DNA of 64,000 nt from Scatophagus argus. Taxonomy: Eukaryota; Chordata; Actinopteri; Scatophagidae. Location: contig NC_058515.1 of assembly GCF_020382885.2 (NCBI RefSeq), forward strand, positions 5,253,223-5,317,222, written 5' to 3'. Numbering within the stretch: the stretch's first letter is position 1; each line of letters begins with the position of its first letter. This document shows, piece by piece, positions 3,601 through 55,832 of this stretch. A model generated the notes under the pieces. It ran no database searches. It had not been told where the DNA came from and saw only the letters and a list, made by a program, of their open reading frames with translations. The position numbers were made by a program, and so were the translations under genes.

Positions 3601-4171
3601 CATCTGGGTGTTGACCAAGTGGGGTCGGCCTGTCTTCTTGGAGCTGCGCTGACGAGCCACAACCTTGGCTATATGGGCCATCTCATTGGCCCCTGAGGGA
3701 AAACACGCTGTCTGCAAAGAGAGAAGAACAGACAGACATAAATACTAATATCAATACAAGATTCATCACGAGCTGGAATTATTATCTCCTATTCACCAAA
3801 AAGTGTGCATCTTATCCATATCATGGATACACTGTTGCATTGTAAATGGTACTTTTTAACTTCAGCCATGTGACACCAATATACCGCATTGAAAATATAA
3901 AAAGGAAAATTTGTGTACACATCTATCTTTCAAAGCAAGCATCCTGCGATAGCAACACACCCACCTCTCCAGAGCGGTGGCGCTCCATGCGGACTAAAGA
4001 GGGCATGCTGGCTAGCAGCGCGTCCAGGTGGTCGTAACCCAGCTGTTTGTGTGGTATCTGCTCCCCGGTCAGCTCCTTGTACTCTGACTGCAGGCGGGAC
4101 AATGACACTCCGCCTTTGTTGGCCTGGAGGACGGCCCGCAGCATCTTCTTCACCAGTTCCACGTCAGCCAT
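611..4171 (-). CDS. tdrd7: Tudor domain-containing protein 7, 5' coding exons (partial, continues off the left edge)
   Basis: TDRD7 is a germ-granule (chromatoid body/nuage) protein with N-terminal LOTUS (OST-HTH) and C-terminal Tudor domains that controls RNAs in germ cells and lens. Three exons are supported: 3965-4171 (ATG at 4169-4171, directly after the acceptor), 3567-3711 and 611-830. Phases join in frame. Residues 1-70 form a LOTUS domain with LVKKMLRAVLQANKGGV and KQLGYDHLDALL, very close to vertebrate TDRD7 as I remember it. The second exon carries VARQRSSKKTGRP, a family signature. The third begins AKPQTSLRQP, matching the mammalian GKPKATLRQP, then enters a Gly/Arg-rich run encoded by repeated CCT/CCA on the plus strand. 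A 2.7-kb intron (831-3566) separates exons two and three. The remaining LOTUS and all Tudor domains lie outside the window. Whether this is the a or b paralogue cannot be told. Confidence 0.88.
831..3566 (-). other. Long tdrd7 intron
   Basis: This intron has a GTAAGA donor (minus, at 3566) and a pyrimidine-rich acceptor ending at 831. It holds short CA/GA simple repeats near 907-929, 2127-2141 and 2257-2275. I saw no further exon or RNA gene. Confidence 0.6.
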
Positions 4172-5969
4172 CTGAAAAACAGGGAAAAAAAAAAATAAAT
4201 CAGAAAATAAACAAACAAAACAAAACCGGTGGCAAAAAAGATTAGCTGAAAGGTAAAAATGGGAAAAAAATACAGCCATCTAAAAACAGCTAAACAGGTC
4301 AAATCTTGTATGTAGAGATGAAGAGATTTTAAATAATCTGTACGTTCACAAAAGCTATGCAGACAAATGAACAATAAAACAGACAAAACATGCTAAGAAT
4401 TCATTCCAACCAATTCACTACACTTTACTATGGCCAACTCATTCTGAAACAACCTTTTTGTTTGTTTTGTTTTCACTGACAAATTAAGGCAGGAAAGTAA
4501 GTCTAAGAGTGACTGCTGCAGCTGATGAGGACTTAAATCCATTTAAATTCGCAATCGTCTGCACATAGATTGAATTCATCTCATGTGCCAGTGGCTGACT
4601 GGTTAGGCAGGTTTTTATAAACTGCTGATCAGATTTCGAAAGCAAACCTTTTTCAGTCAGGCTAAAACTCTATTACAGACTGCAATGGCAACTAGCAGTG
4701 TTGGCTTGCAATGTATTTTAATGGAGATAGTTTTTAATGTACAGTCCATGTATAATGCTATTGGTTTGTTAATTTATAGTGATTATTTATGATAAAAGCA
4801 AGCACTTATCCATCATACCTATTTTTCTTATGGGAAAGGAAAGGAAAGCTATTGTTCAATAGCTATGCAATAATAGCATAATAACAGCAGCATATATTTT
4901 TGATTTAATTCCCTCTTAAATTCTGTCTTATCACACAAAGTATTACTGTAGCCCCACAGACACATTTTGATAAAGAGCTTTATCTTCAAGATGACTGATT
5001 TTCCCCATTTAATCTCACTGCAGAAAAACACATTGATCTTTTTCTGCAGCCAAACCAAACCACCCTACACGGGAATTTACAAAACGTTGCCGACGTAGCA
5101 ACAACTCCTGAACCATTAGGATCTCCCGTGAAAAGTTTAACACCGACTAACAACTCTCAACAAATTTTGGGTGTAATATTTAAAAAAAAACAAACACCAC
5201 AATCTCTACTCTTACGGACGTGGAGACACACCCTCAACAAACAGCTTCGCAAAGACGTCGGTTCAACAACACCGCAGTTCTTCACAAGTTCCAAACTAAA
5301 ATGTCTCTAAATTTTGTACTTGCTCGGTGTACAGGAATGCGCAAACTGCCGGAGTCCAATCTCATCGATTCTGCATTAAGTATTTCTATTATTTTGGGCA
5401 CCTTTGTTTGTAATGCGCTGCCACCCTTTCGGATATTCTATTGAGATTATATACGTGTAGCCGACCGGTCAAGTATTCCATGAGTCTGGATGGGTCTACT
5501 GTAATAAAAGAAAAGATGAAAAGTTGTGCTGGAAACAAATAAAATGATCCTGTCGAATGTACTTGACTGGTTTGATAGAAAATATTGCAGCATTGGGTGA
5601 GTTTTGACCACTTATTGATACGGCCACTTTCTGCAGCGCAGATAAACAGACGGGACAGGGAAACTATGAATGACGTAACGCGTCACACTTCGACTCCACA
5701 CCCTCCATCGGGACCAACTATTTGAATTAAGTTTGGCTGGGTTTTTTCGGTTTTTTTTAACAAAACTGTACTGAAATTGTCCTGACGTACTGAATGACGC
5801 CGGTGGAATACACCGGTCCCGGTGTACAGTCCGTACAGGCAACGATATTGCGCGTAACATCGAGTTAAATCCTCCTGCCACCTCCGGCTCGTCAAGCTCG
5901 CTGGGGACAGCGATCAAAAGACCGGAAGCACACAAATGTAGCCTTCATAATAAAACTACAGAGACTTAC
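4172..5969. other. Probable tdrd7 5' UTR intron
   Basis: The acceptor at 4172-4174 abuts the tdrd7 ATG, so untranslated exon sequence must lie further right. A strong minus-strand donor (GTAAGT) lies at 5969, making this stretch the likely first intron. No other gene seen. Confidence 0.45.
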
Positions 5970-6060
5970 CGAATACTTTGAATCAGGCATATTAGTCACC
6001 CAAACTAACACTTTGAGTATTACTACCGGAAGTACACTTTTGCATACTAACAAACTTTCA
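5970..6060 (-). other. tdrd7: Candidate 5' untranslated exon of tdrd7
   Basis: A minus-strand exon end at 5970 followed by GTAAGT fits the splice donor of a non-coding first exon that would join to the acceptor at 4172. The upstream (right) limit is not visible. An alternative donor (GTAGAA near 6175) would follow an open frame at 6176-6320, but joined to the tdrd7 ATG exon that frame meets a stop at once, so it could only be untranslated too. Confidence 0.35.
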
Positions 6061-7085
6061 AGTCATCCACGCCGGGAGTACAGAAAGAGACAAAACTGAC
6101 TCTCAGCGAAACTTTTTCCGGGGGTAATTGTTATAAAACACCAAGTCAGTATGAAACCTACGGTAAACATTCTACCTTGCTCTAAACCGACAGTGATGCT
6201 GAAGTCAGGACCTGGTCCAGTCGCTGTCAGTGCTGTCAACGCCACAGGGCTGAGCTGCGGCCGGAGGTCTGTCCCCGGAGTGTCTGCCAGCCGGTCCAGG
6301 CACAGCCTCTCCTCCGCCACCTGATTGGTCGGCTGTGTATGGGACTTTGGCTAATTACATGTCAATATGCACCCTGAGACCGAAGCACGAGACAAGGGAC
6401 ACAACTCCCATCCAACCTCAACCAATGATCATTGACGTTACTTTTTCTGCAATAATATTTACTAGACCCGAATGTCTACTATATTCAGTTTTATCACACA
6501 GTTTGCTCCTCTGGTATTCCTAAAAATACGCATAAACAAACAAATATTTTAAATATATAAATTAGGTATGAATCTAAAAATTGTTTACCTCGCTGAATAA
6601 CCCTTCCTTTTCTTCTCTCTTCTTGTAAAGGAGTCTAGTTAGTAATCCAAAGGCTGCTTTAAAAACATCAGATAATATTCATTAATACCTTCATGTGTTA
6701 CTTTTATCTTTGCCTCTGATCAACAGTGTTGTTTTGGCCACTGTTTATGTCTGTTCTTCTCATCCATATATAAGTTCCAATCTCAGTAAACAAACAACTG
6801 CAGAATTGCTTCGGGTATGTATAAAGTCAGAAAGTCATAATGACAATATCTGACTTAAAAAAACAAGCTTAGATTCTCAAGAGGAAGAAGAAACTCTCAC
6901 GAAGACTTGCAAAAGAATAATGAAATGTTCAAAAAAGGAAGAGGGCCCTCTTCATCGCAAATGTGGAATGGGCTCCAAGGTTGATTAAGTAAAATATACC
7001 GTTTAATTAAAGAATATTTCTATCCACCAGGGGCGCTAATGTACATGTACACTTGTGGTCGGTCAGGCAGCCGGAAGTGATCTGT
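6061..7085. promoter_or_regulatory. Probable shared (head-to-head) promoter region of tdrd7 and dctn1
   Basis: This interval separates the left-going tdrd7 5' exon from the right-going dctn1 5' exon. The part around 6180-6320 is visibly richer in CpG than its surroundings, as expected for a broad vertebrate promoter. No TATA box can be assigned with confidence. The call is inferred from gene orientation. Confidence 0.35.
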
Positions 7086-35393: not shown

Positions 35394-37688
35394 TCATATT
35401 GTGATGTCATCTAAATCTCCACCTTCACTGACAGGGCGGATGATAAGTGGTGATTTGTTGCTGTTGTTATCACTCATATCTGGGTTAAAAATTGGAAACA
35501 TGGCCTCAGTGAATTGGAAGTGTGTAAAGGAATAGATGTGTGACTTGGCCTCTGCATCATAGAAGGACACTGTCCCGTCCTCATAATCCAAAAACACCCC
35601 AACAACCTGCGGCCTCTGAGAGAGCCACAGAAGCTCCGCCTGTCCCGCACATGCCCGGTACTCACTGCCCTTCCTCAAACAAACAGTCCAATAGCCGTCA
35701 TCTGGGCTCAGTGTGACCACTCCTTTCCTCTTGACAGACTGTCGAGCCACACCCAAGTCCCACGCTGTTTTGTCTCCTACGTCCACCTCCCAGTAGTGCC
35801 TCCCCGTGGTGAAACCCTGCATAACAGGAGAGAGTTAGGTCACAGGGCTGATTCAGTTCTTGGAGAGTGAAACAGAAAGACACAACATTTGGACAACGAT
35901 AAAAGCAGATAAACAACATCTTTATTTACCCTGGTGCCGAGGACACAAGGTGCTGTGTCAAAACGCTCTGGTATGTCTGTCAGGTCCTGTTCAACATCTC
36001 CATCCCATACCTGTCTTCCATCTTCTGACAGAACCAGCCATGGATTGGCTGTCCTGGGGTCCAGATGAACATCAGCTGGTAAAGAGACAAAGTTTATATG
36101 GAACTCCTTCCCCCTTACATCTTTTTTTATTTGTGGTTTTCAGCATTAAAGGCACTCAGAAAAATACAGATGAAAAAGAACTAAATCACAGTCTCAAAGT
36201 TGGCAGTATTTCTCAGTATTCTGTGGCATAAATTGAGATGATAAACACCAGATGATTTTCTGATGGCTCTATGAAAAAGTAGGGATTATCAGCCCAACTT
36301 TCATAGTTGACAAAACAATCCATTGATCAGCAAAACCAATTATAGTTTAACCAATTAGTTAATTGTCAAAAAATTAATCTGCAAGGTTTTGGCAAAGCTC
36401 TGTTAGCAAGCAAGCAAACAACAAAAAATCAATTGAGAGTGAAATAAATCAGATTCACAGTCCTTTTCCAGGGATAAACTTTTCTAGTAAAACATTTTCA
36501 GTCTTATATTGTTTTATCATTTAGTCTACTCATTCATTAAGTTTTCATTTTGTGGAGATACAGGAGAAAGTATATAACAAAGAGAGATTGTTTCACTGTC
36601 TAAGTTTGTCAATACCTGCATACTGCTGCACCTGATCATGCTCTGTAAGTCAAGAAGAGTATACGATCAGAAATGAAACAACGCTCATGTATTCGATATG
36701 TGATTATGACACCGGATTGAAGTAGCAGTTTTGTCACAGAATGAGGCGATGCTGAAGCTGACCTTGACTGGAAAGTTTCTTCAGGGCCGATCGAAACTGC
36801 TGTTCCATGTTGGCCACCGCTCTCCTTACAGTCCCCAGACATGTGTCTGAATGCACAATGATGTCAGAGCAGGCTTTGACAGACGGAGGAGAACTCAGAC
36901 CTGGAAACCTCTGACACAAAGATGTCAAATAAGGGAGAAATAGCTTTAGAACAGTGTAGACAAGAGGTTTCCTTTAAGACAAAAGACAATAACAACTTTC
37001 TCCTATCTAGCAAATCCACTTTTTCAATTCCTTCCTTCAATTCCAATTCCTTTCAAAGGTCCGTTTTCTGCAGTGGGAGAACTCCTGACCTGCAAAAGGA
37101 GGAGGTGATCCTCAGTATTAGAAAGCTGCTCCATCTCACTCCTCCTCTTCTCCAGCTGAGTGATTTCCAGCTCCAGCTCTGCGACGAGCCTCTCCGCCCT
37201 CTGCTCTGCCGCTGCCTGCTTCCTCTCGATCATCTGCAAGAGCTCAGTCTGACTTCTCTCCATGGAACGAAGCAGTGCGGAGAACATCTCCATACTTTCC
37301 ACTATGTCCCTCTTTGAGTTTTTCTGAAGACATCAGATAACAGAAAAGTTTAATGCCTCCCTCCACTCAAAAATGTTTTGCTTATTGTTCCTTAGCCTGG
37401 ACAGCTTCACTGTGCAGAATGCTGCACGTATTTGACATTAAAATTTGTTTTCACATTCAATTCAATTCAATTTATTTATATAACTCTAAATCACAACAGC
37501 ATCTGTCTCAAGACACTTTCCAATTAGAGCAGGCTAGACCAAATTATTTAACTTGATTTTTATAGAGACTCAACAAAACCCCCATGATTAAGCAGTTGGC
37601 GAGAGTGTGAGGAAAAACTTCCTTTTAGAAGGCAGAAACCTCTGGGCAGATCCCAGCTCAATGTGAGTGGCTATCTGCCGTGACCGGT

Positions 37689-37749
<61 letters not shown>

Positions 37750-38681
37750 CTTAAGGGCTTAAAGGGGGAAGTTTCACTGTGATACATTCAAAATTACATA
37801 TAAACGTTGGTCAGCCTTTTCTGCTCTCTCCATTCTGATACCTTGACTGATTTAAATGCTCCTGCAATGGCCCAAATTTCCATCAGGAAACATCCTATTG
37901 AGCGGAGCCATTATCTTATGTTAACTCACTTTGCTGAGCTCCACGGAGTGTTTGATCTCCTGCACTTTCCGTAGTCTTTCCTGGATCATCTGCCGAACAT
38001 CAGCCTCGATCGTTTTCATCTGAGCCTGGACATCAAAACAGGAATCACACCCAAACTGGAATTAGAGTGCAAATGCTGCCAGTGTGTATGTGGAAGAGTC
38101 TGGGACCTCACCTTCTTTTCTTCACTCTCTCGCTCCACTGGGACGACGTCGTGACGATGGTGGTCCGTCTCGGTGCACAGCACACACACACACCTCTGGT
38201 CGCTCCTGCAGAACAGCTCCAAGAGCCTTTCGTGCCTTTTACAAATCCGGGTCTCCAGAGTTGCCACAGGTTCAATCAGCTTGTGAATTTTCAAGGTGGC
38301 AACTCTCATGTGTGGCTCCAGGTGACTCTCACAATATGAGGTCAGACATACAAGGCAGGACTTTAGGGCTTTTGTTTGCTTTCCCATGCACACATCACAA
38401 TATATAATTCTTCTTTCTGTCGACGTCACACTGTTCTGCCTTCTCGCTCGGATCTGCTCTGACATTTCCTTGGCGAAGGAGTTTTCACAAAGCTCTGGGC
38501 GACCCTCGAAGACAGTGTGACATTTTGGACAGTTGACGGTGAGGCTTTGGTCCCAGTGCGATTTGATGCAGGTGAAGCAGAAGCTGTGACCACAGGGGAT
38601 GGAAACGGGTTCAGAGAAAACATCCTGACAGATGCAACACTGAAACTGCGCCTCTGACAGCAGCACACCCGGGGCAGCCAT
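35394..38681 (-). CDS. Bloodthirsty-related (btr-type) TRIM E3 ubiquitin ligase, complete
   Basis: RING/B-box/coiled-coil/PRY-SPRY protein, a predicted E3 ubiquitin ligase of the expanded teleost TRIM group; many members are linked to innate immunity. Exons (minus): 38112-38681, 37930-38025, 37090-37323, 36763-36910, 36616-36642, 35930-36075, 35394-35816. They total 1644 bp (547 aa). The 96-bp and 234-bp coiled-coil exons are the classic sizes in this class. RING (about residues 15-56) has [16 protein letters not shown] and CPKC. The B-box region has [18 protein letters not shown], and [12 protein letters not shown] then [13 protein letters not shown]. The PRY starts [14 protein letters not shown]. 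The SPRY holds [16 protein letters not shown] and [23 protein letters not shown] plus [10 protein letters not shown] point to the btr subgroup from memory. The member number cannot be assigned. Confidence 0.88.
37458..37694 (+). mobile_element. Dispersed teleost interspersed repeat in a TRIM intron
   Basis: Starts with repeated TTCAA and ATTTATTTATATA. It continues with the 'AGGAAAAACTTCC' and 'CTGCCGTGACCGGTTGGG' signatures that I recognise from very abundant repeats scattered through percomorph genomes. The family name cannot be given safely from sequence alone. Confidence 0.65.
37695..37747 (+). repeat. (GA)n microsatellite
   Basis: Perfect GA run directly after the dispersed repeat, as is common at the tail of that element. 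Confidence 0.95.
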
Positions 38682-38759
38682 GACCTCAGAAATGAAAAAA
38701 AACAAACAAAAAACAAACAAAACACAAAACCGATCATGGAAAAGAAATTAATCATTTAC

Positions 38760-40481
38760 ACTCAGAGCAGAGGAAATGTGTTTTGGTAACATTTACAAAA
38801 CATATAGCATAGCCTACACAAATATTTCCAAATCATTCATTCTCTTTAATGCAGAAATTATTCAGTGCTTTTACTGCTGCCAGAAAAATCTGAACTTCCT
38901 TATCAGCTTTCAATAGCTTTCAAACAATTCAACGCTGGCCACTGGCCAAAGTCCAAGGTCACATGACACAGCCTCTCTTTTGGTAAGCTTAGTTTGAAAC
39001 ATGGACTGAATATACCTAATAAAATCCAGAGACTAGCATGCATGCTTCTTCATCCACAAGTGTTCTTATGTACCACACTCACATAACTCAGCGCAAACCC
39101 CACAGGAGGATGAAGACTAATGGCTTCAAATAGTAGTCCCTCCAATATTCCTTTTTGACCACGACAAAGCCACAAGCAGAATCATCATTTGAACAATTGT
39201 ATCTCTAATCAAAACGCTGACACATCCCCATCTTGTTATGTTGCCTTGGTCTTACCTTGTTGCTGAATCTAAAACGTGACCTACGAGGTAGTGAAGGCAA
39301 ACACTGGCAGTGCAGTTGTGAAGCCAAAGTCCTCCCCGTCGTGCCGTTACCACTCCCTCTGGGTCTTTTATTCCTCCAGAGCTTTTCAACTACGATGTTG
39401 TTCCAGGGTGGGAGGAGTAATGTTTAGACCAGGTGCCTTACTGGGTTTGTATTGTGCAGACTGTCTTTGTATTGTATTAAAAATAGTATTCTATTTGCAT
39501 TGTTTTGTACTGGGCTAAGCAACAGTGACGGAGCATTTGAATAAAACTCAGTCACATTCGTCACTTCACCATTCCCAGGCTCTTTATTTCAACCGAACAG
39601 AAAGATACTAAACATTTTCTTAATACTGTAAAAAAATAAATTAAAGTGAACAGCATGTGCATTTAGGTTTTCCATACTTTACTGGCACTCTCATGGTGTG
39701 TCCAAAATCCATACTATACACTTTAAGCAGGTTTGGTTCACAAAAAAAAGACTAAAAGTATGCTCAGCCAAACACTGAGGACTAGAAATACAATAGAGTT
39801 TGGACACTGTTTTCCCATAATGCAATTCACAAAGGAAAGCGAAGCACAATTCACATCTGGACAAGTTTAAAAAACATGAACGACGGTTAAAGAGAAATTT
39901 TGCTTTCTCTTTGTAAAAGTTTGAGGGTTTTGAACACAATAACATAGCAGCAAACCACTATTTAACCGTGATGTCATACTCTTTCTGTGTGCGTGTTGTA
40001 ATCTGCTGGAATCTGCATGTTAATGAGTCGCCCCTCAGTACGCTGGGGACGACCAATCAGCACTGGCTCATTTTACAGTTTGATCAGAGACATGTAATCT
40101 TCTGTGTAAAAGCAGGCCACAAAATGACAGCAGTTATAATCTTTCTGATTTTGACAGCAAAAAATGGACATGAAACAAATGTTGTATATTCCACCTTTAA
40201 ATAGCAGTGAATTCTGAATTAACAGTTTTAATGGAATATGTATTGTGCAATTTACCAACAGCACAAATGGTAATGCTATGTTTTTTCATACATGTGCTAA
40301 AATAGTATAATATGATGATTTGGGATGTGCCATGTCTACATTTAAGAACAGTTTACTAAAAAAAATCACTTTCACTGTAATCTGACAAATCTGATTTCCC
40401 ATCATCATTTTGTCCCCATTCATTTCAAGGAAAAGCAATTCAGACCATGACTATGTCCATTCCGTCTTTCCTCCACAGGTG
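38760..40481. other. TRIM upstream region and 3' flank of the lectin-FN3 gene
   Basis: A minus-strand donor (GTAAGA) at 39255 marks the end of a probable TRIM 5' untranslated exon (39256 to about 39400). A minus-strand AATAAA at 39583-39588 lies about 0.9 kb beyond the lectin-FN3 stop and could end that transcript. No coding exon was seen in between. Confidence 0.4.
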
Positions 40482-43400
40482 TCATGTCTTAACAGAATGA
40501 AGCTTCAAGGAAAATAAATGCGGGGATAATCCGTGTTCAACCAAAAGCTAGATAAAAAAAAAAGAGAGAAGAAGAAAAAGAAAATAAAAATCCCGCCACA
40601 CACACAGCAGAAAGAAAATTGTTAATACTGAACAAAATTATTATGCTGATTTTTGAGTTAAAATGAATAAAAACTATTCATGATATTGAAAAAAATGAAC
40701 TGAAACAGCAGTTTGTCTCACCTCCGTCAACAAATCCTCCAGGTCTGAGGCTGACAGCTGAACAGATGACTTTAATCTGATGTTTAATCCAACCACATAT
40801 TCTGTTTACACAAATATATGAAATAAAAACACATGACTATACACTCTAAATGATTACATCATCTTTTAGTATTTGTTATTGTAATGAACATAGGTCTAAT
40901 TACTGAATGATGTTACAATTACGTACGTCAAATATACAATGTGTCAATGTCTGACATGTATTTTCTGAGCACAAAACGACTTTAAAAACTTGTTAAATCA
41001 AATTTAAATTTTATTCTTGATTTTTGTAATGATTTCTTGTGTGCATAGCTGTGATTAGGATATCAGTTATAATTACAATCATACAACTGGACACTCAAAA
41101 GCAATGGCTCAGACCATGGAATTCATGGACCATGAATTTAATAAATACTTATACTTACGAGACCCTGTTGCTGTAGGACGCAGAGTCAAACACATTTTGG
41201 GAAGATTGTGTTTGGTCACATGGAGAGAAAGAAAATGTTAAGATTCATAAATGAAAAATTCATAATTTCTTCATAACTCTTGAAAATCATATACATAAAT
41301 TTCTCTATAAGGTTATTTAAACAAGTGTTTTTTACACTAAAGATAAAATGAAAATTTTTAAATTACATGACAAAGAAAAGTAAAAAAAAAAAGAAGGCAA
41401 TGAAAGGTGGGGTTGTATTAACAGTGGCCTTTCAAATGTGCCTGGAACAGCAGTAAGAAAAAAAAGAATAAAGAAAGGAATAATGAAGTTGAAGGGCAGC
41501 TCTATGTGAAAGAGCAAGGGGGATTGTCACACATAATGGGACAAATAATTACTACTGACTGTCCAGTAGCTCCCCTAGTTTCAAGGTGAAAACGAACAAA
41601 CATTTTGTTCAATTAATCTACTGCTGCTGAAAACTGATGTCGTGAATGTTACCTTATAAAAGTCATATAAAAAGTCCTGCAAAAGTCATGAAACCATTTC
41701 TGTACTACAGTAGGGAATGAGATGTATATTTGAACATCCAATATCATGCCTGGTTAAATACACAAGTCAACAAGAAGCTGAGTTAAATTAACACGGCATC
41801 AAAATGTTTGTTTTGAATTTAAAACAGTGAAAATAATACCAAGCGTATATCCACTTGAACACTGGTTGAACGCCATACGCAGCATGTATATATCATGTTT
41901 ATAATAGTGCTCAAAAAGCACATGACGACCAGCATAGGAGATACAGTGTGCAGAAATGAAGTGACATATCTTACCAGTGACAGCAACAGCATTTACTCCA
42001 CTGCTTCTGACGCTCTCAAACACAGAGAAGAGAGTGAAGGTGTACTGAGTCCCAGCAGCGAGAGATGACACTGTGTGAGTTACTGGTCCATCTCCATCTG
42101 GTGCACTGATGTTTATCTCTGCACCATTATACTGGAGGATAAAGCTGACATTGCTGTTCACTTTGTCCCACTGCAGAGTGATACTGCTCTCATCTTGTCC
42201 TGTTGGTCCAAAGTTTTCTGCATTTGGAGGGGCTGAGAGAGGAGAAGGATCAGCAGAAAACAATGGATTAAGAAAAGGAATTTTGTAAAAGTGGGCAGTG
42301 TTCTATCTAGCAGTTAAAGGTCCATTTTGCATCCCCTGAAGAGTAACAATGAATGCTGTTTGTAAGAGGCAGAGCAAGTGAAAATTCTTTCCATTAAATA
42401 AGACTTATTTTCTATTCTGATTCCAGCTGTCACATTTGATGATATTAACCATCACACTTTGACAACAGTGTCATCATAAATGAGCAGTCAAAACATAATA
42501 AAGGATTTTGAAATAAACATTTAGAGCCCAAAACTGATATTAACGTATTGGCCAAACAATACTGGATTCAATTAACATGCCAACAAAGTGGTTGCTGTTA
42601 AATGAACAAAATACTGAATATTATATCCACCATGTCCATATGTTTTCTATACTAGTGCAGTGAGACGCACGTGATGACCAGCATAGGAGATACAGTGTGC
42701 AGAAACGAAGTGACATATCTTACCAGTGACAGCAACAGCATTTACTCCACTGCTTCTGACACTCTCAAACACAGAGAAGAGAGTGAAGGTGTACTGAGTC
42801 CCAGCAGCGAGAGATGACACTGTGTGAGTTACTGGTCCATCTCCATCTGGTGCACTGATGTTTATCTCTGCACCATTATACTGGAGGATAAAGCTGACAT
42901 TGCTGTTCACTTTGTCCCACTGCAGAGTGATACTGCTCTCATCTTGTCCTGTTGGTCCAAAGTTTTCTGCATTTGGAGGAGCTGAGAGAGGAGAAGGATC
43001 AGCAGAAAACAATGGATTAAGAAAAGGAATTTTGTAAAAGTGGGCAGTGTTCTATCTAGCAGTTAAAGGTCCATTTTGCATCCCCTGAAGAGTAAAAATG
43101 AATGCTGTTTGTAAGAGACAGAGCAAGTGAAAATTCTTTCCATTAAATAAGACTTATTTTCTATTCTGGTTCCAGCTGTCATATTTGATGATATTAATCA
43201 TCACACGCTGCCAACACAGTCCGATTTGACGATAAATGAGCAGTCACAACATTATAAAAGTTTTTGAAATCAACATTTAGAGCCCAAAAATTATATTAAT
43301 GTGTTGGCCAAACAATACTGGATTCAATTAACATGCCAACATTGTGGTTGTTGTTAAGTGAAAAAATTCCTGAATATTATACTCACTGTGTATAGATGTA

Positions 43401-46400
43401 TTCTATACCAGTGCATTGAGAAGCACATGATGACCAGCATAGGAGATACAGTGTGCAGAAATGAAGTGACATATCTTACCAGTGACAGCAACAGCATTTA
43501 CTCCACTGCTTCTGACGCTCTCAAACACAGAGAAGAGAGTGAAGGTGTACTGAGTCCCAGCAGTGAGAGATGACACTGTGTGAGTTACTGGTCCATCTCC
43601 ATCTGGTGCACTGATGTTTATCTGTGCACCATTATACTGGAGGATAAAGCTGACATTGCTGTTCACTTTGTCCCACTGCAGAGTGATACTGCTCTCATCT
43701 TGTCCTGATGGTCCAAAGTTTTCTGCATTTGGAGGAGCTGAGAGAGGAGAAGGATCAGCAGAAAACAATGGATTAAGAAAAGGAATTTTGTAAAAGTGGG
43801 CAGTGTTCTATCTAGCAGTTAAAGGTCCATTTTGCATCCCCTGAAGAGTAAAAATGAATGCTGTTTGTAAGAGACAGAGCAAGTGAAAATTCTTTCCATT
43901 AAATAAGACTTATTTTCTATTCTGGTTCCAGCTGTCATATTTGATGATATTAATCATCACATGCTGCCAACACAGTCCGATTTGACGATAAATGAGCAGT
44001 CACAACATTATAAAAGTTTTTGAAATCAACATTTAGAGCCCAAAAATTATATTAATGTGTTGGCCAAACAATACTGGATTAAATTAACATGCCAACATTG
44101 TGGTTGTTGTTAAGTGAAAAAATTCCTGAATATTATACTCACTGTGTATAGATGTATTCTATACCAGTGCATTGAGAAGCGCATGATGACCAGCATAGGA
44201 GATACAGTGTGCAGAAATGAAGTGACATATCTTACCAGTGACAGCAACAGCATTTACTCCACTGCTTCTGACACTCTCAAACACAGAGAAGAGAGTGAAG
44301 GTGTACTGAGTCCCAGCAGTGAGAGATGACACTGTGTGAGTTACTGGTCCATCTCCATCTGGTGCACTGATGTTTATCTGTGCACCATTATACTGGAGGA
44401 TAAAGCTGACATTGCTGTTCACTTTGTCCCACTGCAGAGTGATACTGCTCTCATCTTGTCCTGATGGTCCAAAGTTTTCTGCATTTGGAGGAGCTGAGAG
44501 AGGAGAAGGCTCAGTACAAAAAAAATTAATTAACCAAGGAATTTTGTAAAAGTGGGCAGTTGTCTATCTGGAGATTTAAGAAGGTCCATTTTGCATCCCC
44601 TGTTGAGTAACAATGAATGCTGTTTGTAAGAGACAAGACTAAGAGTTGTTTTCTATTCTCGTTCCAGCTGTCACATTTGATGATATTAACCATCACACTT
44701 TGACAACAGTGTCATCATAAATGAGCAGTCAAAACATAATAAAGGATTTTGAAATAAACATTTAGAGCCCAAAACTTATATTAACGTATTGGCCAAACAA
44801 TACTGGGTTCAATTAACATGCCAACAAAGTGGTTGTTGTTAAATGAACAAAATACTGAATATTATACCCACCATGTCCATATGTTTTCTATACTAGTGCA
44901 ATGAGATGCACATGATGACCAGCATAGGAGATACAGTGTGCAGAAATGAAGTGACATATCTTACCAGTGACAGCAACAGCATTTACTCCACTGCTTCTGA
45001 CGCTTTCAAACACAGAGAAGAGAGTGAAGGTGTACTGAGTCCCAGCAGCGAGAGATGACACTGTGTGAGTTACTGGTCCATCTCCATCTGGTGCACTGAT
45101 GTTTATCTCTGCACCATTATACTGGAGAATAAAGCTGACATTGCTGTTCACTTTGTCCCACTGCAGAGTGATACTGGTCTCATCTTGTCCTGATGGTCCA
45201 AAGTTTTCTGCATCTGGAGGAGCTGAGAGAGGAGAAGGATCAGTACAAAAAATGGATTAACCAAGGAATTTTGTAAAAGTGGGCAGTTGTCTATCTGGAG
45301 GTTTAAGAAGGTCCATTTTGCATCCCCTGAAGAGTAACAATGAATGCGGTTTGTAAGAGACAGAGCAAGTGAAAATTCTTTCCATTAAGTAAGACTTGTT
45401 TTCTATTCTGGTTCCAGCTGTCACATTTTATAATGATAATCATAACACGTTGATGACAAAGTCACATTTGACAATAAAAGAGGAGTCACAACATTATAAA
45501 AGTTTTTGAAATCAACATTTAGAGCCCAAAAATTATATTAATGTGTGGGCAAACAATACTGGATTCAATTAACATGCCAACAAAGTGGTTGTTGTTAAGT
45601 GAAAAAATTCCTGAATATTATACTCACTGTGTATAGATGTATTCTATACTAGTGCAATGAGAAGTACATGATGACCAGCATAGGAAATACAGTGTGCAGA
45701 AATGAAGTGACATATCTTACCAGTGACAGCAACAGCATTTACTCCACTGCTTCTGACGCTCTCAAACACAGAGAAGAGAGTGAAGGTGTACTGAGTCCCA
45801 GCAGCGAGAGATGACACTGTGTGAGTTACTGGTCCATCTCCATCTGGTGCACTGATGTTTATCTGTGCACCATTATACTGGAGGATAAAGCTGACATTGC
45901 TGTTCACTTTGTCCCACTGCAGAGTGATACTGCTCTCATCTTGTCCTGATGGTCCAAAGTTTTCTGCATTTGGAGGAGCTGAGAGAGGAGAAAGATCAGT
46001 ACAAAACATGGATTAACCAAGAAATTTTGTAAAAGTGGGCAGTTGTCTATTTGGAGACTTAAGAAGGTCAATTTTGCATCCCCTGATGAGTAACAATGAA
46101 TGCTGTTTGTAAGAGACAGAGCAAGTGAAAATTCTTTCCATTAAGTAAGACTTGTTTTCTATTCTGGTTCCAGCTGTCACATTTTATAATGATAATCATA
46201 ACACGTTGATGACAAAGTCACATTTGACAATAAAAGAGGAGTCACAACATTCTAAAAGTTTTAGAAATGCACATTCAGATCTCGAACAAGACTTCAATGT
46301 GTTGGCCAAACAACGCTGAGCTAAATTTACATGCAAACAAAGTGGATGCTGTTTACAAAAAATATATATATATATATATTATACTCGCTGTGTATAGATG

Positions 46401-49400
46401 CATTCTATACTGGTGCTCTAAAAAGTGGAAGATGATCAGCATAGGAGATACAGTGTGCAGAAATGAAGTGATATGTCTTACCAGTGACAGCAACAGCATT
46501 TACTCCACTGCTTCTGATGCTCTCAAACACAGAGAAGAGAGTGAAGGTGTACTGAGTCCCAGCAGTGAGAGATGACACTGTGTGAGTTACTGGTCCATCT
46601 CCATTTGGTGCACTGATGATGATATCTGTACCATTATGCTGGTGATTAAAGCTGACATTGCTGTTCACTGGATCCCACTGTGCAGTGATGCTGGTCTCAT
46701 CTTGTCCATCACCGCTGAATTCATCTATTCCATATAGATCTGGTGCACTGATGTTTATCTCTGCACCATTATACTGGAGAATAAAGCTGACATTGCTGTT
46801 CACTTTGTCCCACTGCAGAGTGATACTGCTCTCATCTTGTCCTGATGGTCCAAAGTTTTCTGCATTTGGAGGAGCTGAGAGAGGAGAAGGCTCAGTACAA
46901 AAAAAATTAATTAACCAAGGAATTTTGTAAAAGTGGGCAGTTGTCTATCTGGAGATTTAAGAAGGTCCATTTTGCATCCCCTGTTGAGTAACAATGAATG
47001 CTGTTTGTAAGAGACAAGACTAAGAGTTGTTTTCTATTCTGGTTCCAGCTGTCGCATTTGATGATATTAACCATCACACTTTGACAACAGTGTCACCATA
47101 AATGAGCAGTCAAAACATTATAAATTTTTTTGAAATAAATATTTAGAGCCCAAAAATTATATTAATGTGTTGGCCAAACAATACTGGGTTCAATTAATAT
47201 GCGAAAAAAAGTGGTTGTTGTTAAGTGAAAAAAATCCTGAATATTATACTCAATGTGTATAGAAGAGAGAAGAATCACTTCATTGACAGTATATATATTT
47301 TTACATATACACACTGAATTTGTCTTCTGCATTTGACCCATCCTTAGTTGAACACACATGCAACACCCGGCAAATTACATGCAGTGAAACACACAAAGGA
47401 GCAGTGGGCAGCATCAAGCACCCAGGGAGCATATTGGGGGTTAAGTGCCTTGCTCAAGGGCACATCAGCCAGCTAATGGAGGGGGGGGAGCAATTTTTTC
47501 GCATTAATCACTCCACCACACTCAAACTTTTCCTGCCTGTCCGGTGGGGGAATTGAACCTGTGACCCTCCGATCACAAGCCGCTTCTCCAACCTCTAGGC
47601 CACGGCTGCCCCCATAGATGTATTCTATACTAGTGCAATGAGACGCACATGATGACCAGCATAGGAGATACAGTGTGCAGAAATGAAGTGACATATCTTA
47701 CCAGTGACAGCAACAGCATTTACTCCACTGCTTCTGACGCTCTCAAACACAGAGAAGAGAGTGAAGGTGTACTGAGTCCCAGCAGTGAGAGATGACACTG
47801 TGTGAGTTACTGGTCCATCTCCATCTGGTGCACTGATGTTTATCTCTGCACCATTATACTGGAGGATAAAACTGACATTGCTGTTCACTTTGTCCCACTG
47901 CAGAGTGATACTGCTCTCATCTTGTCCTGATGGTCCAAAGTTTTCTGCATTTGGAGGAGCTGAGCGAGGAGAAGGATCAGTACAAAAAATGGATTAACCA
48001 AGGAATTTTGTAAAAGTGGGCAGTGTTCTATCTGGAGACTTAAGAAGGTCCATTTTGCATCCCCTGAAGAGTAACAATGAATGCGGTTTGTAAGAGGCAG
48101 AGCCAGTGAAAATTCTTTCCATTAAGTAAGACTTGTTTTCTATTCTGGTTCCAGCTGTCACATTTTATAATGATAATCATAACACGTTGATGACAAAGTC
48201 ACATTTGACAATAAAAGAGGAGTCACAACATAATAAAAGTTTTTGAAATAAACATTTAGAGCCCAAAACTTATATTAACGTATTGGCCAAACAATACTGG
48301 ATTCAATTAACATGCCAACAAAGTGGTTGTTGTTAAATGAACAAAATACTGAATATTATACCCACCATGTCCATATGTTTTCTATACTAGTGCAATGAGA
48401 CGCACATGATGACCAGCATAGGAGATACAGTGTGCAGAAATGAAGTGACATATCTTACCAGTGACAGCAACAGCATTTACTCCACTGCTTCTGACGCTTT
48501 CAAACACAGAGAAGAGAGTGAAGGTGTACTGAGTCCCAGCAGTGAGAGATGACACTGTGTGAGTTACTGGTCCATCTCCATCTGGTGCACTGATGTTTAT
48601 CTCTGCACCATTATACTGGAGAATAAAGCTGACATTGCTGTTCACTTTGTCCCACTGCAGAGAGATACTGGTTTCATCTTGTCCTGATGGTCCAAAGTTT
48701 TCTGCATTTGGAGGAGCTGAGAGAGGAGAAGGATCAGCGGAACACAATGGATTAAGAAAAGGATTTTTGTAAAAGTGGGCAGTGTTCTATCTGGCAGTTA
48801 AAGGTCCATTTTGCATCCCCTGATGAGTAAAAATGAATGCTGTTTGTAAGAGGCAGAGCAAGTGAAAATTCTTTCCATTAAATAAGACTTGGTTTCTATT
48901 CTGGTTCCAGCTGTCATATTTGATGATATTAATCATCATATGCTGCCAACACAGTCCGATTTGACGATAAATGAGCAGTCACAACATTATAAAAGTTTTT
49001 GAAATCAACATTTAGAGCCCAAAAATTATATTAATGTGTTGGCCAAACAATACTGGATTAAATTAACATGCCAACAAAGTGGTTGTTGTTAAGTGAAAAA
49101 ATTCCTGAATATTATACTTACTGTGTCCACATGTTTTCTATACTAGTGCAATGAGACGCACATGATGACCAGCACAGGAAATACAGTGTGCAGAAATGAA
49201 GTGACATATCTTACCAGTGACAGCAACAGCATTTACTCCACTGCTTCTGACACTCTCAAACACAGAGAAGAGAGTGAAGGTGTACTGAGTCCCAGCAGTG
49301 AGAGATGACACTGTGTGAGTTACTGGTCCATCTCCATCTGGTGCACTGATGTTTATCTCTGCACCATTATACTGGAGAATAAAGCTGACATTGCTGTTCA

Positions 49401-52400
49401 CTTTGTCCCACTGCAGAGTGATACTGGTCTCATCTTGTCCTGATGGTCCAAAGTTGTCTGCATCTGGAGGAGCTGAGCGAGGAGAAGGATCAGTACAAAA
49501 AATGGATTAACCAAGGAATTTTGTAAAAGTGTGCAGTTGTCTATCTGGAGACTTAAGAAGGTCCATTTTGCATCCCCTGAAGAGTAACAATGAATGCTGT
49601 TTGTAAGAGGCAGAGCAAGTGAAAATTCTTTCCATTAAGTAAGACTTGTTTTCTATTCTGGTTCCAGCTGTCACATTTGATGATATTAACCATCACACTT
49701 TGACAACAGTGTCATCATAAATGAGCAGTCAAAACATAATAAAGGTTTTTGAAATAAACATTTACAGCCCAAAACTTATATTAACGTATTGGCCAAACAA
49801 TACTGGATTCAATTAACATGCCAACAAAGTGGTTGTTGTTAAATGAACAAAATACTGAATATTATACCCACCATGTCCATATGTTTTCTATACTAGTGCA
49901 ATGAGACGCACGTGATGACCAGCTTAGGAGATACAGTATGCAGAAATGAAGTGACATATCTCACCAGTGACAGCAACAGCATTTACTCCACTGCTTCTGA
50001 CACTCTCAAACACAGAGAAGAGAGTGAAGGTGTACTGAGTCCCAGCAGTGAGAGATGACACTGTGTGAGTTACTGGTCCATCTCCATCTGGTGCACTGAT
50101 GTTTATCTCTGTACCATTATACTGGAGAATAAAGCTGACATTGCTGTTCACTTTGTCCCACTGCAGAGTGATACTGCTCTCATCTTGTCCTGATGGTCCA
50201 AAGTTTTCTGCATTTGGAGGAGCTGAGAGAGGAAAATAGCAGTTACCAGTTTTATCAGGAAAGGACGGTCTGCAGAATAGTCCTGATTCCGATTAGTCAG
50301 AGATATCTGCATAACATGGCCGGTCCATTCATCTGTTGCTCTGGTTGAATGTTAAAGCTAGTAAGTAAAATTTATTCCCCGGTAGCTGGCCCAAAGATGA
50401 GATTAAGAAAAAAGGCCATTTTACCGACATATCCTGACCAGTTATCTTGCTGCCACTGATCACTGCTTGCAATTATGGATGCTAATAGTTAGAGCTGCTC
50501 CTAAAGTGTATTGACTTGCTATTTGCTGTCACATCATTCCAAACTAAACCGCAAACCAACAGACAGTGGTGAAACGTTCTCTATTGCCCAACCAGTTAAA
50601 CATGTCTTTTGACATTTTCTATTATGTCATGTACATTTTTAATAATGTTATGCTTATTCAAAGACACTGAGAAAGACAAACATCTCACCAGTGACAGCAA
50701 CAGCATTTACTCCACTGCTTCTGACGCTCTCAAACACAGAGAAGAGAGTGAAGGTGTACTGAGTCCCAGCAGCGAGAGATGACACTGTGTGAGTTACTGG
50801 TCCATCTCCATCTGGTGCACTGATGTTTATCTCTGCACCATTATACTGGAGAATAAAGCTGACATTGCTGTTCACTTTGTCCCACTGCAGAGTGATACTG
50901 CTCTCATCTTGTCCTGTTGGTCTGAAGTTTTCTGCATTTGGAGGAGCTGAGAGAGGAAAAGAATCAGTGGAAAAAACGTATTAACCAAGGACTTGTTGTA
51001 AAAGTTGTTTGTATTCTATGTGGCAGTTTAAGAAGGTCCATTTTGCATCCCCTGATGAGTAACAATGACTGATGTTTGTAAGAGACAAAACAAGTGAAAA
51101 CTCACTGCATGAATTAAAACTTGCTTTCTATTCTGGTTCCAGCTGTCACATTTTATAATATTAACTGTCAAACATTGACAATAGAGTCACATTTGACAGT
51201 AAATGAGGAGTCACAATATTATAAAAATTTTCAAAATATACATTCAGAACTTAAAAAAGACTTACATATGTTGGTCAAACAATGCTGAGCTAAATTTACA
51301 TGCAAACAAAGTGGATGTTGTTCAGTAAAATAAAAGAAAAATTGAATATTATATCCACTGTGTATAGATGTATTATATACTGGTGCATGAAAAAGCAGAA
51401 GATGACCAGCACAGGAAATACAGTGTGCAGAAATGAAGTGACATATCTTACCAGTGACAGCAACAGCATTTACTCCACTGCTTCTGACGCTCTCAAACAC
51501 AGAGAAGAGAGTGAAGGTGTACTGAGTCCCAGCAGCGAGAGATGACACTGTGTGAGTTACTGGTCCATCTCCATCTGGTGCACTGATGTTTATCTCTGCA
51601 CCATTATACTGGAGAATAAAGCTGACATTGCTGTTCACTTTGTCCCACTGCAGAGTGATACTGCTCTCATCTTGTCCTGATGGTCCAAAGTTTTCTGCAT
51701 TTGGAGGAGCTGAGAGAGGAAAATAGCAGTTACCAGTTTTATCAGGAAAGGACGGTCTGCAGAATAGTCCCGATTCCACTAGTCAGAGATATCTACATAA
51801 CATGGCCGGTCCATTCATCTGTTGCTCTGGTTGAATGTTAAAGCTAGTAAGTAAAATTTATTCTCCGGTAGCTGGCCCAAAGATGAAATTAAGAAAAAAG
51901 GCCATTTTACAGACACATCCTGACCAGTTATCTTGCTGCCACTGATCACTGCTTGCAATTATGGATGCTAATAGTTAGAGCTGCTCCTAAAGTGTATTGA
52001 CTTGCTATTTGCTGTCACATCATTCCAAACTAAACCGCAAACCAACAGACAGTGGTGAAACGTTCTCTATTGCCCAACCAGTTAAACATGTCTTTTGACA
52101 TTTTCTATTATGTCATGTACATTTTTAATAATGTTATGCTTATTCAAAGACACTGAGAAAGACAAACATCTCACCAGTGACAGCAACAGCATTTACTCCA
52201 CTGCTTCTGACACTCTCAAACACAGAGAAGAGAGTGAAGGTGTACTGAGTCCCAGCAGCGAGAGATGACACTGTGTGAGTTACTGGTCCATCTCCATCTG
52301 GTGCACTGATGTTTATCTCTGCACCATTATACTGGAGAATAAAGCTGACATTGCTGTTCACTTTGTCCCACTGCAGAGTGATACTGCTCTCATCTTGTCC

Positions 52401-55400
52401 TGTTGGTCTGAAGTTTTCTGCATTTGGAGGAGCTGAGAGAGGAAAATAGTTTTATCAAGAAGTGTGCAGAATAGTCTTGATTCTATTATTCAGAGCTATC
52501 TATATACTTGCCTGCTCTTTTAATCTGTTGCTCTGTTTGAATGCTGCGAGTACAAAGTAAAATTTAATTGTCTAGGAGCTGGTCCCATTTAGAGATTAAA
52601 ATATAAGGACATTTTTCAGACATGTTGTTTAGTTTATGCTATTGATTATTGATTGCTATTGATTATGCTACTGATTACTGCTTGGTTTTACGACCTGCAA
52701 TTATGCTAATAGCTAGGACTACACTCGTGGGTTAAAATGACTGCTTCCTCAGTTGCCTATTTCATTTTGTATTTGTCGCCTTTTTATGTTTGCTTGCCCC
52801 GCCCTGAATGTTTTCAACCTTCTCGTGTCTTTAAGCTTTGTGTGAGCGTACTGCTTTGCGTTTCGAGTTTTGTTGTGTTTTCAGCAGTGTTATGCTTGTT
52901 TAAAAGACATCGATAAAGACAAACATCTTACCAGTGACAGCAATAATGTTTACTCCACTGCTTCTGATGTCCCCAAATACAGAGAAGAGAGTGAAGGTGT
53001 ACCGAGTTCCAGAAATGAGAGATGACACTGTGTGAGTTACTGGTCCATCTCCATCTGGTGCAGCGATGGCCACCTCTGCTTCATTATACTGGAGAATAAA
53101 GTTGACATTGTTGTTCACTTTGTCCCACTGCAGAATGATAAAGGTCTCATCTTGTCCGGTTGGTCTGAAGTTTTCTGCATTGGGTACAACTGAGACAGAG
53201 AGGAGAGCATAGGAAACAAAAAATTACATAAAATGGTAAGAATGGACTGGTTACACAGCAGACATTCTGACGTATTAATGACGCATTCCACTTCAAGGAG
53301 ATCGTGCTCTTGTGTGTGCTCACATCCATCCACACTGAATGGAGCCGAGCAGTTTATTGTATTAAAATCCAACTGTGTTTTTCATCCTGTGAAAGGTCAA
53401 AACGTGCTGAGCAACCAATCCACTGTTAGTTTGCCTGACTGGCTGTTTAATGTAAAAAATAATGTGTCAATATCTTTCACACTTTTCATTCAAACAAACT
53501 AATAAACACCTTAATGCATGCAGTCCATGATGGTTAATGCTGTTTCATCCATTAGTCCTAATCAATCACCTTTGTGGTATAAAACACAATTTTCTTTGTT
53601 TCTGTTTTTCTTTCACTTACATTTGACCCACTTGGCCATGTGTGCAAAATCACACTAGATTCAACTGCTTCTGGTGTCAACTTGATCTTGAAGGTATGAC
53701 ATATAGCATATTTGTAAATAAGGTAGATTGCGTGATATCATGCATTACTTGTTTGGTGACAAATGAATGGAAAACTGAGGGAGCAGTCATCATCTGACCA
53801 ACGCCCTGAGTCATTGAACGCTGCTGTGACACACTGCTCTGCGCCAATGTCTGGTTGCCCATCAGCCCAGTGTCGAAAAAGAGACATGCTTCCATCAGAC
53901 CACAGTTTTTCCCGGTACAGACCGATCCACACAAAGAACCCGTTTGCAAGGTTTGTGATGATCTCATTCTCTGTCTGATTTCGAATACTGGAAGAGAAAA
54001 AGTAGCATATACATATCATTCTATGAAATGGTTGATGAAGAACTGGAAAAGTTAATCACATTGTTAGTGATTGTTAGGCAGGGAGGTATTGAAAGGAATG
54101 AAAGGACAAAATCCAACAATAGCGCAGATATTAATAGAAAGAAACAAATCCCTGTGTGCGGTACCTGGCTAGATCAATATGATTCTCCCTGCAATATCTC
54201 TGAGCTTCAGTCCAATTCTTCGACATGCTGAGGTAGCTGACAAAGGTTGCTGTGCCATTTACTGTCCCTGGAAAAATATGGATGAGGAGAAATTATGAAC
54301 ACTGTCAGGGTGGACTTGCACACAACACTCATCTTGCTATTATGTATGCAGTAGTATGATGTATCAGTGAAAGAAAGCAGAAAGATTTAAAGACGAGTGA
54401 AATAAAATGCTATGTAGAAGATCTACTTGTCGTTTGTTAATTCTTATGCTCTGTGAAAACTCACCGTTGTAGCACACAAAGGGTCGCAGGAGGCTGCATG
54501 AAGAGTCACCCCATGTGCCAAAGTATGGACTCCCACTAAATAACTCTACACAGTACTGCTCATCTCCAAGATTGTTAGGCTGTTGAGTATACCAGTTTCT
54601 AAACTCTGTCTCTCCTTCACCATAGTAGCTGTTGTCAGTCAGGGACCATCTCCAGCTGTTGATCAAATCATCATAAAGACCTATCCAAGCCTTGCCTGTT
54701 CAGAAAGATATCCATTACATAAATCAGTGGGAGAATAAGATCAATGAAAGGAATAAAAATAATAAAAAGAGTTAAAAAGACAACATCACAAATATTTATT
54801 CCAATATTGAGAACTTGCCTGTGTAGTTTGATGTGCTGACAGCAGCACTGACATCATCTGTGTTTTCTAGGGTGGCCAGGTCAGTGTAGACCTGCCTGCA
54901 GAAGCCCTGAGCTTCAGTCCAGTTCAGTGCTGTATTTACAAAGTAGTACTGACGGGTTTGGGCAGAGCCAACACTGAACAGTGCTCCTAAAAGCAAAGCA
55001 TATTCAGTTTTAATTACTGATTTAAGTATGCAGTTCTTCTCCTATGCTCTTTCACAGTGAATATCAAGTGGGTTCAAAAACATTCCTGCAGGATACGACA
55101 AAACGTCTTCCTCATTGATGAGATTTCTAAAATCTCCTCAGAATGCAGTTTGACAAGAACAACAAAGAGCAGCAACAACAGTTCAGATGTTTCTGTATAT
55201 TGCAGATGGTCACTGGAATTACTTTATACCTATCTAAGTTTCTAATTTATTCAAATTAAATGCACTGTGAAAAAAATTATAACCCTCACTCCCACACAAT
55301 TTCTGGAATCATACACTGACTGGGTTGAAACCTGAACCAAACAGCTGTGGCAAATTCTAGATCTAATGCCTTAACAACTTGTCCACTACAAATGAGGCCA

Positions 55401-55832
55401 GATCAAGTTTCAGCCTATGAGTTGAATTACCAGTTGAGGCTGAGCAGAAAAACACATAAAAAGTAATTGTGTGTGTACTTACATTCACTGTGTTCAAAAT
55501 AAGCTGAGCCATAAAGTTCAAACCCTCAACTTCTATTATCTATTCACTGAGTCTCTGAGTTTCTTTCCTGTGCCGTGAATTTCATTTGCAACTACTATCA
55601 AAAATCCAGTTACTCTACCGAAAATGTTCTCTACAGGAATATATGTGTCATTAAAAAACACAATTATTACAATAATTCAAGGCAATTTCTGTTTTAAAAT
55701 GTGTCCTCTTTGTCTCTGTTCCACCTAATGCAAACAGTTTAGGTTGTCATTGCTGTAAAAAGACAAAACATAAGAAAAATCCAACAACAGGCACCAACCT
55801 GTGAGGATGAAGATGATCAGCGCATAATCCAT
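40482..55832 (-). CDS. Secreted protein with two C-type lectin domains and a 15-exon FN3 array
   Basis: I do not recognise an orthologue. Exons (minus): 55799-55832, 54819-54986, 54465-54695, 54165-54267, 53749-53987; FN3 exons 52932-53189, 52175-52432, 51452-51709, 50689-50946, 49965-50222, 49215-49472, 48459-48716, 47702-47959, 46482-46874, 45721-45978, 44965-45222, 44236-44493, 43480-43737, 42724-42981, 41975-42232; then 40722-40801 and 40482-40547. They total 4926 bp (1641 aa). MDYALIIFILTGALFSVGSA is a signal peptide. CTLD1 has WIGLYDD, a QPN motif and CYN. CTLD2 has WIGLYRE, a QPD motif (galactose-type in the family) and a WSDDDC in the Ca2+-site region. All but one FN3 exon are 258 bp (86 aa), phase 1-1. 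Most FN3 domains carry two N-glycosylation sequons (NVS, NIS). The tail is VGLNIRLKSSVQLS then LHSVKT and stop. No membrane segment was seen, so it is probably secreted. Lectin or adhesion function is inferred. Confidence 0.8.
46482..46874 (-). other. Hybrid 393-bp FN3 exon (one and a half domains)
   Basis: The first 48 or so codons follow the array consensus up to NISAPD. The frame then enters LYGIDEFSGDGQDETSITAQ and a second, diverged A-to-C' strand region (QWDPVNSNVSFNHQHNG) before rejoining consensus at GDGPVTHTVSS. The extra 135 bp (45 codons) keeps the frame. The inserted half is too different from its neighbours to be a fresh local duplicate, so it looks like a recombination between a consensus unit and an older variant. 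Confidence 0.9.
47263..47613 (-). mobile_element. tRNA-derived SINE
   Basis: Read on the minus strand, the element opens GGGGCAGCCGTGGCCTAGAG, with an A-box-like TGGCCTAGAGGTTGG and a B-box-like GGTTCAATTCC about 40 bp later, the internal Pol III promoter of tRNA-type SINEs. It interrupts the array intron text 'GTGTATAGATGTATTC', intact in other units, with a short ATAG-type flank on both sides. This explains the 1220-bp spacing of this unit. Confidence 0.8.
49965..52432 (-). repeat. Duplicated two-exon block within the FN3 array
   Basis: Block 49965-50946 (FN3 exon, distinctive intron, FN3 exon) recurs at 51452-52432, about 1487 bp away and only 1 bp different in length. The intron inside each copy (50223-50688 and 51710-52174) is nearly identical and unlike every other array intron, showing that two units were copied together. 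Confidence 0.9.

Follow-up and report, generated by a model that had tools for sequence, protein, structure and literature searches.

A dual-CTLD lectin gene model with a tandem array of fifteen FN3 exons in the fish Scatophagus argus

Fish lectins with two C-type lectin domains (CTLDs) form a family whose first description, from pufferfish, dates from 2004 (Zelensky & Gready, BMC Genomics 5:51, PMC514892). In the available text of that survey, soluble fish proteins with two (or three) CTLDs make up group F1, with FDC-F1 to F7 in Fugu; no mammalian orthologues were found for the group, and its description mentions neither an FN3 array nor a signal peptide. The same text lists the protein-tyrosine phosphatase PTP-GMC1 among the CTLD-containing proteins and includes Fugu CFN3, a "protein with CTLD and FN3 domains", as a gene-table row in the unclassified group. 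Since CFN3 stands in the 2004 Fugu table, the pairing of CTLD and FN3 domains had been predicted before. CFN3 belongs to the lowest prediction quality group there, and the available main text names it once, giving neither the number nor the order of its domains nor a tail. We found nothing on a CFN3 lectin in the literature beyond this survey, and no description of a dual-CTLD FN3 protein in a literature whose subscription papers lay mostly beyond coverage.

We investigated a 64,000-nt stretch of the Scatophagus argus genome (the window; C23:5253223-5317222 in our contig numbering); the genome searched comprises 570.7 Mb in 48 contigs. A gene runs along the minus strand from 55832 to 40482 and consists of five head exons, 15 FN3 exons and two tail exons (Table 1). 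Our reading of splice sites and phases gives a model protein of 1641 aa in a single frame that stays open and in phase up to the stop; from the N- to the C-terminus, the protein consists of a signal peptide, two CTLDs, the 15 FN3 exons and a short tail. A first-pass annotation of the same DNA had proposed these coordinates, this exon count and a 1641-aa frame on the strength of splice signals and phase; all were reproduced, and the model ends exactly at 40482. An optional 12-nt micro-exon (41170-41159) would raise the length to 1645 aa. An initial tail model, in which a 12-nt micro-exon was followed by PVSLRPGGFVDGAFG and a stop, was dropped, as the longer exon A reaches the stop given by the first-pass annotation. 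The FN3 exons are all phase 1 to 1 and stop-free (15 of 15), and 14 of them measure exactly 258 nt, the ninth being 393 nt long. This regularity is far beyond chance. The intron within CTLD1 is of the GC-AG type. On a rough donor scale, a matrix drawn from general knowledge, the donor after CTLD2 (exon 5) scores 0.74 versus 4.4-5.2 for the FN3 donors, and the exon 4 donor is also weak (0.46). The locus is probably a real gene.

Table 1. Exons of the gene model, in transcript order (positions within the window)
Feature	Description	Positions	Strand	Basis
Exon 1	Start codon and start of signal peptide (MDYALIIFILT), phase 0 to 1	55799..55832	-	hydropathy
Exon 2	End of signal peptide and 5' half of CTLD1; GC donor CAG/GCAAGT	54819..54986	-	
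Exon 3	3' half of CTLD1 (QPN ... WGD)	54465..54695	-	
Exon 4	5' part of CTLD2, phase 1 to 2	54165..54267	-	
Exon 5	3' part of CTLD2 (QPD ... WSD); weak donor CAA/GTAATG	53749..53987	-	
FN3 exon 1	DNA ~85-87% identical to that of the remaining 258-nt exons; no sequons; under Pfam cut-off	52932..53189	-	
FN3 exon 2		52175..52432	-	
FN3 exon 3		51452..51709	-	
FN3 exon 4		50689..50946	-	
FN3 exon 5		49965..50222	-	
FN3 exon 6		49215..49472	-	
FN3 exon 7		48459..48716	-	
FN3 exon 8		47702..47959	-	
FN3 exon 9	393 nt, ~1.5 FN3 domains, in-frame fusion	46482..46874	-	
FN3 exon 10	Exon used for folding	45721..45978	-	
FN3 exon 11		44965..45222	-	
FN3 exon 12		44236..44493	-	
FN3 exon 13		43480..43737	-	
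FN3 exon 14		42724..42981	-	
FN3 exon 15	Outside the initial FN3 pattern match, placed by gene model	41975..42232	-	
Tail exon A	Phase 1 to 0, 80 nt, EYVVGLNIRLKSSVQLSASDLEDLLTE	40722..40801	-	
Tail exon B	LLVEHGLSPHLFSLKLHSVKT, then stop	40482..40547	-	

We then examined the domains. Pfam finds Lectin_C twice (E=6.8e-34), in agreement with the earlier claim of two CTLDs in one frame, and the PDB sequences closest to the CTLDs are those of the PLA2 receptor, mannose receptor 2 and selectins. Three of the 15 FN3 exons (1, 3 and 9) were submitted to Pfam, where exon 3 scored 26.5 bits, exon 9 25.4 and exon 1 19.8 against the fn3 cut-off of 25. FN3 exon 10 is predicted by AlphaFold2 to form a seven-strand beta sandwich (pLDDT 95), and its top Foldseek neighbours in the PDB are FN3 structures, many of them engineered. 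FN3 exon 9 was modelled at pLDDT 73.5 and may fold poorly. The count of fifteen FN3 exons is a count of phase 1-1 exons, with the qualification that exon 9 holds about one and a half domains and that exon 1 misses the Pfam cut-off. These exons contain no cysteine. The protein has 38 N-glycosylation sequons, 31 of which lie in the FN3 exons, so that heavy N-glycosylation of the stalk is predicted; a glycosylated stalk had been suggested before. Past the signal peptide, no 19-residue stretch of the model protein has a mean hydropathy above 1.15. This bears out the earlier statement that no transmembrane (TM) segment is visible; a candidate TM exon (41501-41367) lies outside the model. Pfam and the predicted fold thus place CTLD and FN3 in one model protein, as in Fugu CFN3, with the likeness to CFN3 drawn from its table description alone. 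The architecture had been thought to lack a known name. This holds in part: F1 and CFN3 have been described, the latter as a one-line table entry.

The lectin head has many relatives in this genome. A search with CTLD1 gave at least 50 matches at E<=0.001. We built a FastTree phylogeny of CTLDs from single open frames, with 34 rows (the two CTLDs of the window plus 32 taken from fetched loci, two of the rows being repeats, since L007 and L015 are the same place); the tree was midpoint-rooted and printed without branch supports, and the split CTLD2 of L016 was left out. With the first and second CTLDs of the siblings assigned by their order on the contig, the CTLD1 of the window groups with the first CTLDs of dual-CTLD loci and its CTLD2 with the second ones, while seven rows from other CTLD loci (L001-L006 and L008) make a separate clade. 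Because both CTLDs group with their siblings by position, descent of the head from a dual-CTLD gene is most likely. CTLD1 has as its tree neighbour L016 (C23:12.68 Mb), which also shows the top identity (53%, versus 49% for L015); in the genome search with CTLD1, L015 slightly outscores L016. The siblings L013, L015-L021 and L023 share with the window gene the two CTLDs, akin by position, and a model without a TM segment. On the other hand, no FN3 match lies inside any of them in the genome search at E<=0.001, unlike in the window gene. A head belonging with the fish dual-CTLD lectins of group F1 is the best explanation of these sequence relationships, the kinship being judged against same-genome siblings that were classed as F1 by their two CTLDs.

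Alignment of the sugar-site regions separates the two CTLDs. CTLD2 has QPD, a Glu that precedes the following Cys, and W-S-D, in which the Asn of WND is replaced by Ser. CTLD1 has QPN and W-G-D, and thus lacks the canonical motifs. QPD is the galactose-type motif. From these residues, the sugar-site motifs look near-canonical in CTLD2 only, and the number of working sugar sites is likely to be one, perhaps two.

The tail also points to L016. Past its CTLDs, L016 has three Ser/Thr-rich exons (one from a scan and two read by eye), followed by a tail of two exons, the first 86 nt long, whose phases, 1 and 0, equal those of the window gene. Such a two-exon tail is a feature observed in the present analysis rather than one taken from the 2004 survey. 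The joined tails of the two genes align with a score of 57, which was reached by one of 20000 shuffles of the window tail; L016 had been chosen as the tree neighbour of CTLD1 and was the twelfth sibling tail examined. Tail exon A alone scored above all shuffles (0/20000 reached its score), and exon B alone gave a weak result (339/20000). Profiles of the other sibling tails gave the window tail only 4.3-8.5 bits, versus 36-65 bits in a leave-one-out control on 10 true siblings; the score was equalled or exceeded by 15 of 20000 shuffles with a five-tail profile and by 24 and 364 of 50000 with larger ones. In a profile scan of 2797 ORF fragments from the window, the two tail exons came out 8th and 6th rather than first. 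Tail kinship with the eleven siblings other than L016 is therefore at most suggestive. With L016 itself, head and tail both appear akin, since it is the tree neighbour of CTLD1 and has a matching two-exon tail. The two genes differ in the stalk: the 15 FN3 exons occupy the position where L016 has its three Ser/Thr-rich, mucin-like exons.

We then looked for the source of the FN3 exons. One 86-aa domain, used as query at E<=0.001, matches two places in the genome: the window (16 rows) and C21:9603635-9608748 (nine rows, eight at 48-55% identity and the ninth at 32%). Other FN3 proteins that the genome must have score below this limit. Unlike the array of the window gene, that on C21 leads, on its own strand, into exons of a receptor tyrosine phosphatase (RPTP), the gene with its FN3 stalk lying at C21:9.599-9.609 Mb. 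The top scorers in the C21 phosphatase search were receptors with two phosphatase domains, the best with a single one being PTPRB and PTPRJ. Like the window gene, the C21 gene has one FN3 domain per phase 1-1 exon, and seven of the eight C21 exons given a splice check have equal borders and phase. No CTLD match is listed near the C21 array on its strand, one of the searches having scored 150 of 320 candidates. As the sole other match, with the same exon borders and phase, an RPTP-type FN3 cassette would be the most economical source, although the cassette could have come from another FN3 source beyond the reach of the search. The first-pass annotation had named splicing from the array into a phosphatase exon as a result that would overturn its model. 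This finds no support, since four C21 phosphatase exon peptides have no match near the gene or past 40482 on its strand in a search of the window. Their one window hit (E=0.063) lies at 1480-1635 on the plus strand, far from the gene, and in a control the peptides recover their own locus at E<=4.6e-16.

The FN3 exons are much alike. Leaving out FN3 exons 1 and 9, the 13 ordinary exons show 98.1% identity over 78 pairs (96.5-99.6%), with a pN/pS of 0.41. The introns of the array fall into classes, some of which are only ~40-52% alike in alignment. Within seven units of one intron class, synonymous divergence is 3.2% versus 8.9% in the introns, and lower in 20 of 21 pairs. At the upstream border of the exon, divergence across eight units drops from 10.5% to 2.2%; downstream, it stays low for ~43 nt into the intron and then reaches 9-23%. 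Because purifying selection on the protein alone spares synonymous change, exon-centred homogenisation or synonymous constraint is likely.

Starting from the computed exon structure, domain identities, predicted FN3 fold of exon 10 and kinship of head and tail, and from a model without a TM segment, we favour, with moderate confidence, a single gene for a secreted, soluble F1 dual-CTLD lectin that took up an RPTP-type FN3 cassette, expanded it in tandem and could act as a long-reach lectin or agglutinin. The cassette would have entered the phase-1 intron between CTLD2 and the tail and then expanded to 15 tandem exons, the coding parts of which were kept nearly identical. If the transcript is spliced throughout as modelled, both CTLDs would bind glycans, with a QPD-type calcium site serving CTLD2, and the FN3 rod, extended and N-glycosylated, would keep the lectin head distant from the tail. 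An FN3 unit measures ~3-3.5 nm, so that about 15 units would give a rod of some 50 nm, which N-glycans would shield. The small tail may serve assembly. A physiological role in agglutination or opsonisation is a guess by analogy with the family, and the mucosal or serum role proposed in the first-pass annotation is likewise conjectural.

Alternatively, the locus might make two products: a short soluble dual-CTLD lectin ending in TSNA, the FN3 array then belonging to a minor isoform at most or to a separate gene. This is unlikely in our judgement. The weak junction donor (0.74), a score equalled by 6.9% of the GT sites on the minus strand of the window, is consistent with it, as is the read-through past the exon 5 donor, which adds TSNA and then a stop. 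Yet the exon 4 donor is weaker still, and CTLD2 needs exon 4. A scan of 53740-53190 for a start exon (ATG, open frame, phase-1 GT donor above 1.0) gave no candidate, and the control site gave one, the true exon 1; a more distant first exon would lie outside this range. The one-gene model gains from this result, as no alternative single start exon was found, and from the tail beyond the array, which matches a sibling lectin tail. The earlier proposal of a single gene for a probably secreted dual-CTLD protein on an FN3 rod is the best-supported reading.

A membrane-anchored receptor, for which the model would have overlooked a TM exon close to the 3' end and the FN3 rod would bear a cell-surface lectin, seems improbable. 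The candidate exon mentioned above is phase 1-1, lies between FN3 exon 15 and the tail and encodes a 19-mer with a mean hydropathy of 2.04. The window contains 13 such acceptor sites (six on the minus strand, including the candidate, and seven on the plus strand), so that ~0.13 would be expected in the 1.27 kb searched here, and the available text of Zelensky & Gready (PMC514892) cautions that TM exons had often gone undetected in Fugu CTLD genes. However, chance alone does produce open hydrophobic runs in T-rich introns, our reading of the L016 tail reaches its stop without a TM segment, and no TM exon was found from the stop of the window gene to the next gene (38760-40481).

Instead of a glycan-binding lectin, the protein could be a matrix or adhesion adaptor whose CTLDs bind protein and whose rod is structural; we consider this about equally doubtful. 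The analogy is with lectican CTLDs that bind tenascin FN3 domains: in the solved complex 1tdq a lectican CTLD is bound to tenascin-R FN3 domains, and its chains were matched by our FN3 unit and head. The motifs of CTLD1 would suit an adaptor. Those retained in CTLD2 (QPD, the following Glu and W-S-D) argue against it, as do the sugar-site residues reported for at least one CTLD in the F1 family in the available text of PMC514892. Decay of the gene or a faulty assembly of its repeats, suggested by the long run of near-identical tandem units, the fused exon 9 and the weak donors, is very improbable given that none of the 15 FN3 exons has a stop or frameshift, that pN/pS is 0.41 over 13 exons and that no two of 14 exon-plus-intron units are identical.

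The single-gene lectin with an FN3 stalk that we favour can be extended, more tentatively and at somewhat less than even chances, to the family. The fish dual-CTLD lectins may be a modular platform, in which the phase-1 intron between the head and the C-terminal mini-domain takes interchangeable stalk cassettes: RPTP-type FN3 exons in the window gene and, in its sibling elsewhere on that chromosome, mucin-like exons. The cassette would then lengthen, and homogenisation limited to exons would keep the coding units alike while the introns drift. Stalk length may therefore vary between individuals. If transcripts confirm the model, a domain combination that we met in the literature only as one line of the 2004 pufferfish table would gain a complete gene model, a place among its relatives and a likely origin. 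It would also offer an example from nature in which sister lectin genes differ by a stalk swapped at one intron, allowing predictions on secretion, glycan binding and variation in repeat number.

Within the window gene, the first C-type lectin domain (CTLD1) is interrupted by a 123-nt intron of the GC-AG type, and ACAGGCAAG is present at each end of it. The CTLD1 of the sibling dual-CTLD gene L016 (C23:12.68 Mb) reads as a single open frame without this intron. The GC-AG borders and the ACAGGCAAG copies at both ends are compatible with a recent intron gain. The stalk of L016 consists of three Ser/Thr-rich exons, and its tail resembles that of the window gene. The TRIM-type gene sits downstream of the window gene.

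Features and their coordinates (window positions unless stated)
Feature	Position	Strand	Remark
L016 dual-CTLD gene	L016 positions 5000-6950	minus	
OST-HTH/LOTUS domain exon	3923-4279	minus	
TRIM-type gene	35394-38747	minus	RING, B-box and SPRY exons
FN3 exon array	41975-53189		exon-versus-intron comparison
FN3 exon 9	46482-46874		in-frame fusion exon
Intron inside CTLD2	53988-54164	minus	window gene model
Intron inside CTLD1	54696-54818	minus	window gene model
Receptor tyrosine phosphatase	L010 and L009, C21:9.599-9.609 Mb		

The C21 receptor tyrosine phosphatase carries its own tandem array of similar FN3 exons, and a dual-CTLD gene (L013) lies about 23 kb from it on the opposite strand.

In FN3 exon 9, approximately half of one unit is joined in frame to a diverged, nearly whole unit, and the predicted structure has low model confidence at the fusion point. 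Across FN3 exons 2-8 and 10-15 of the array, exon likeness is 96.5-99.6%, even beside flanking introns that are only ~40-52% alike. This contrast probably reflects exon-centred homogenisation or synonymous constraint.
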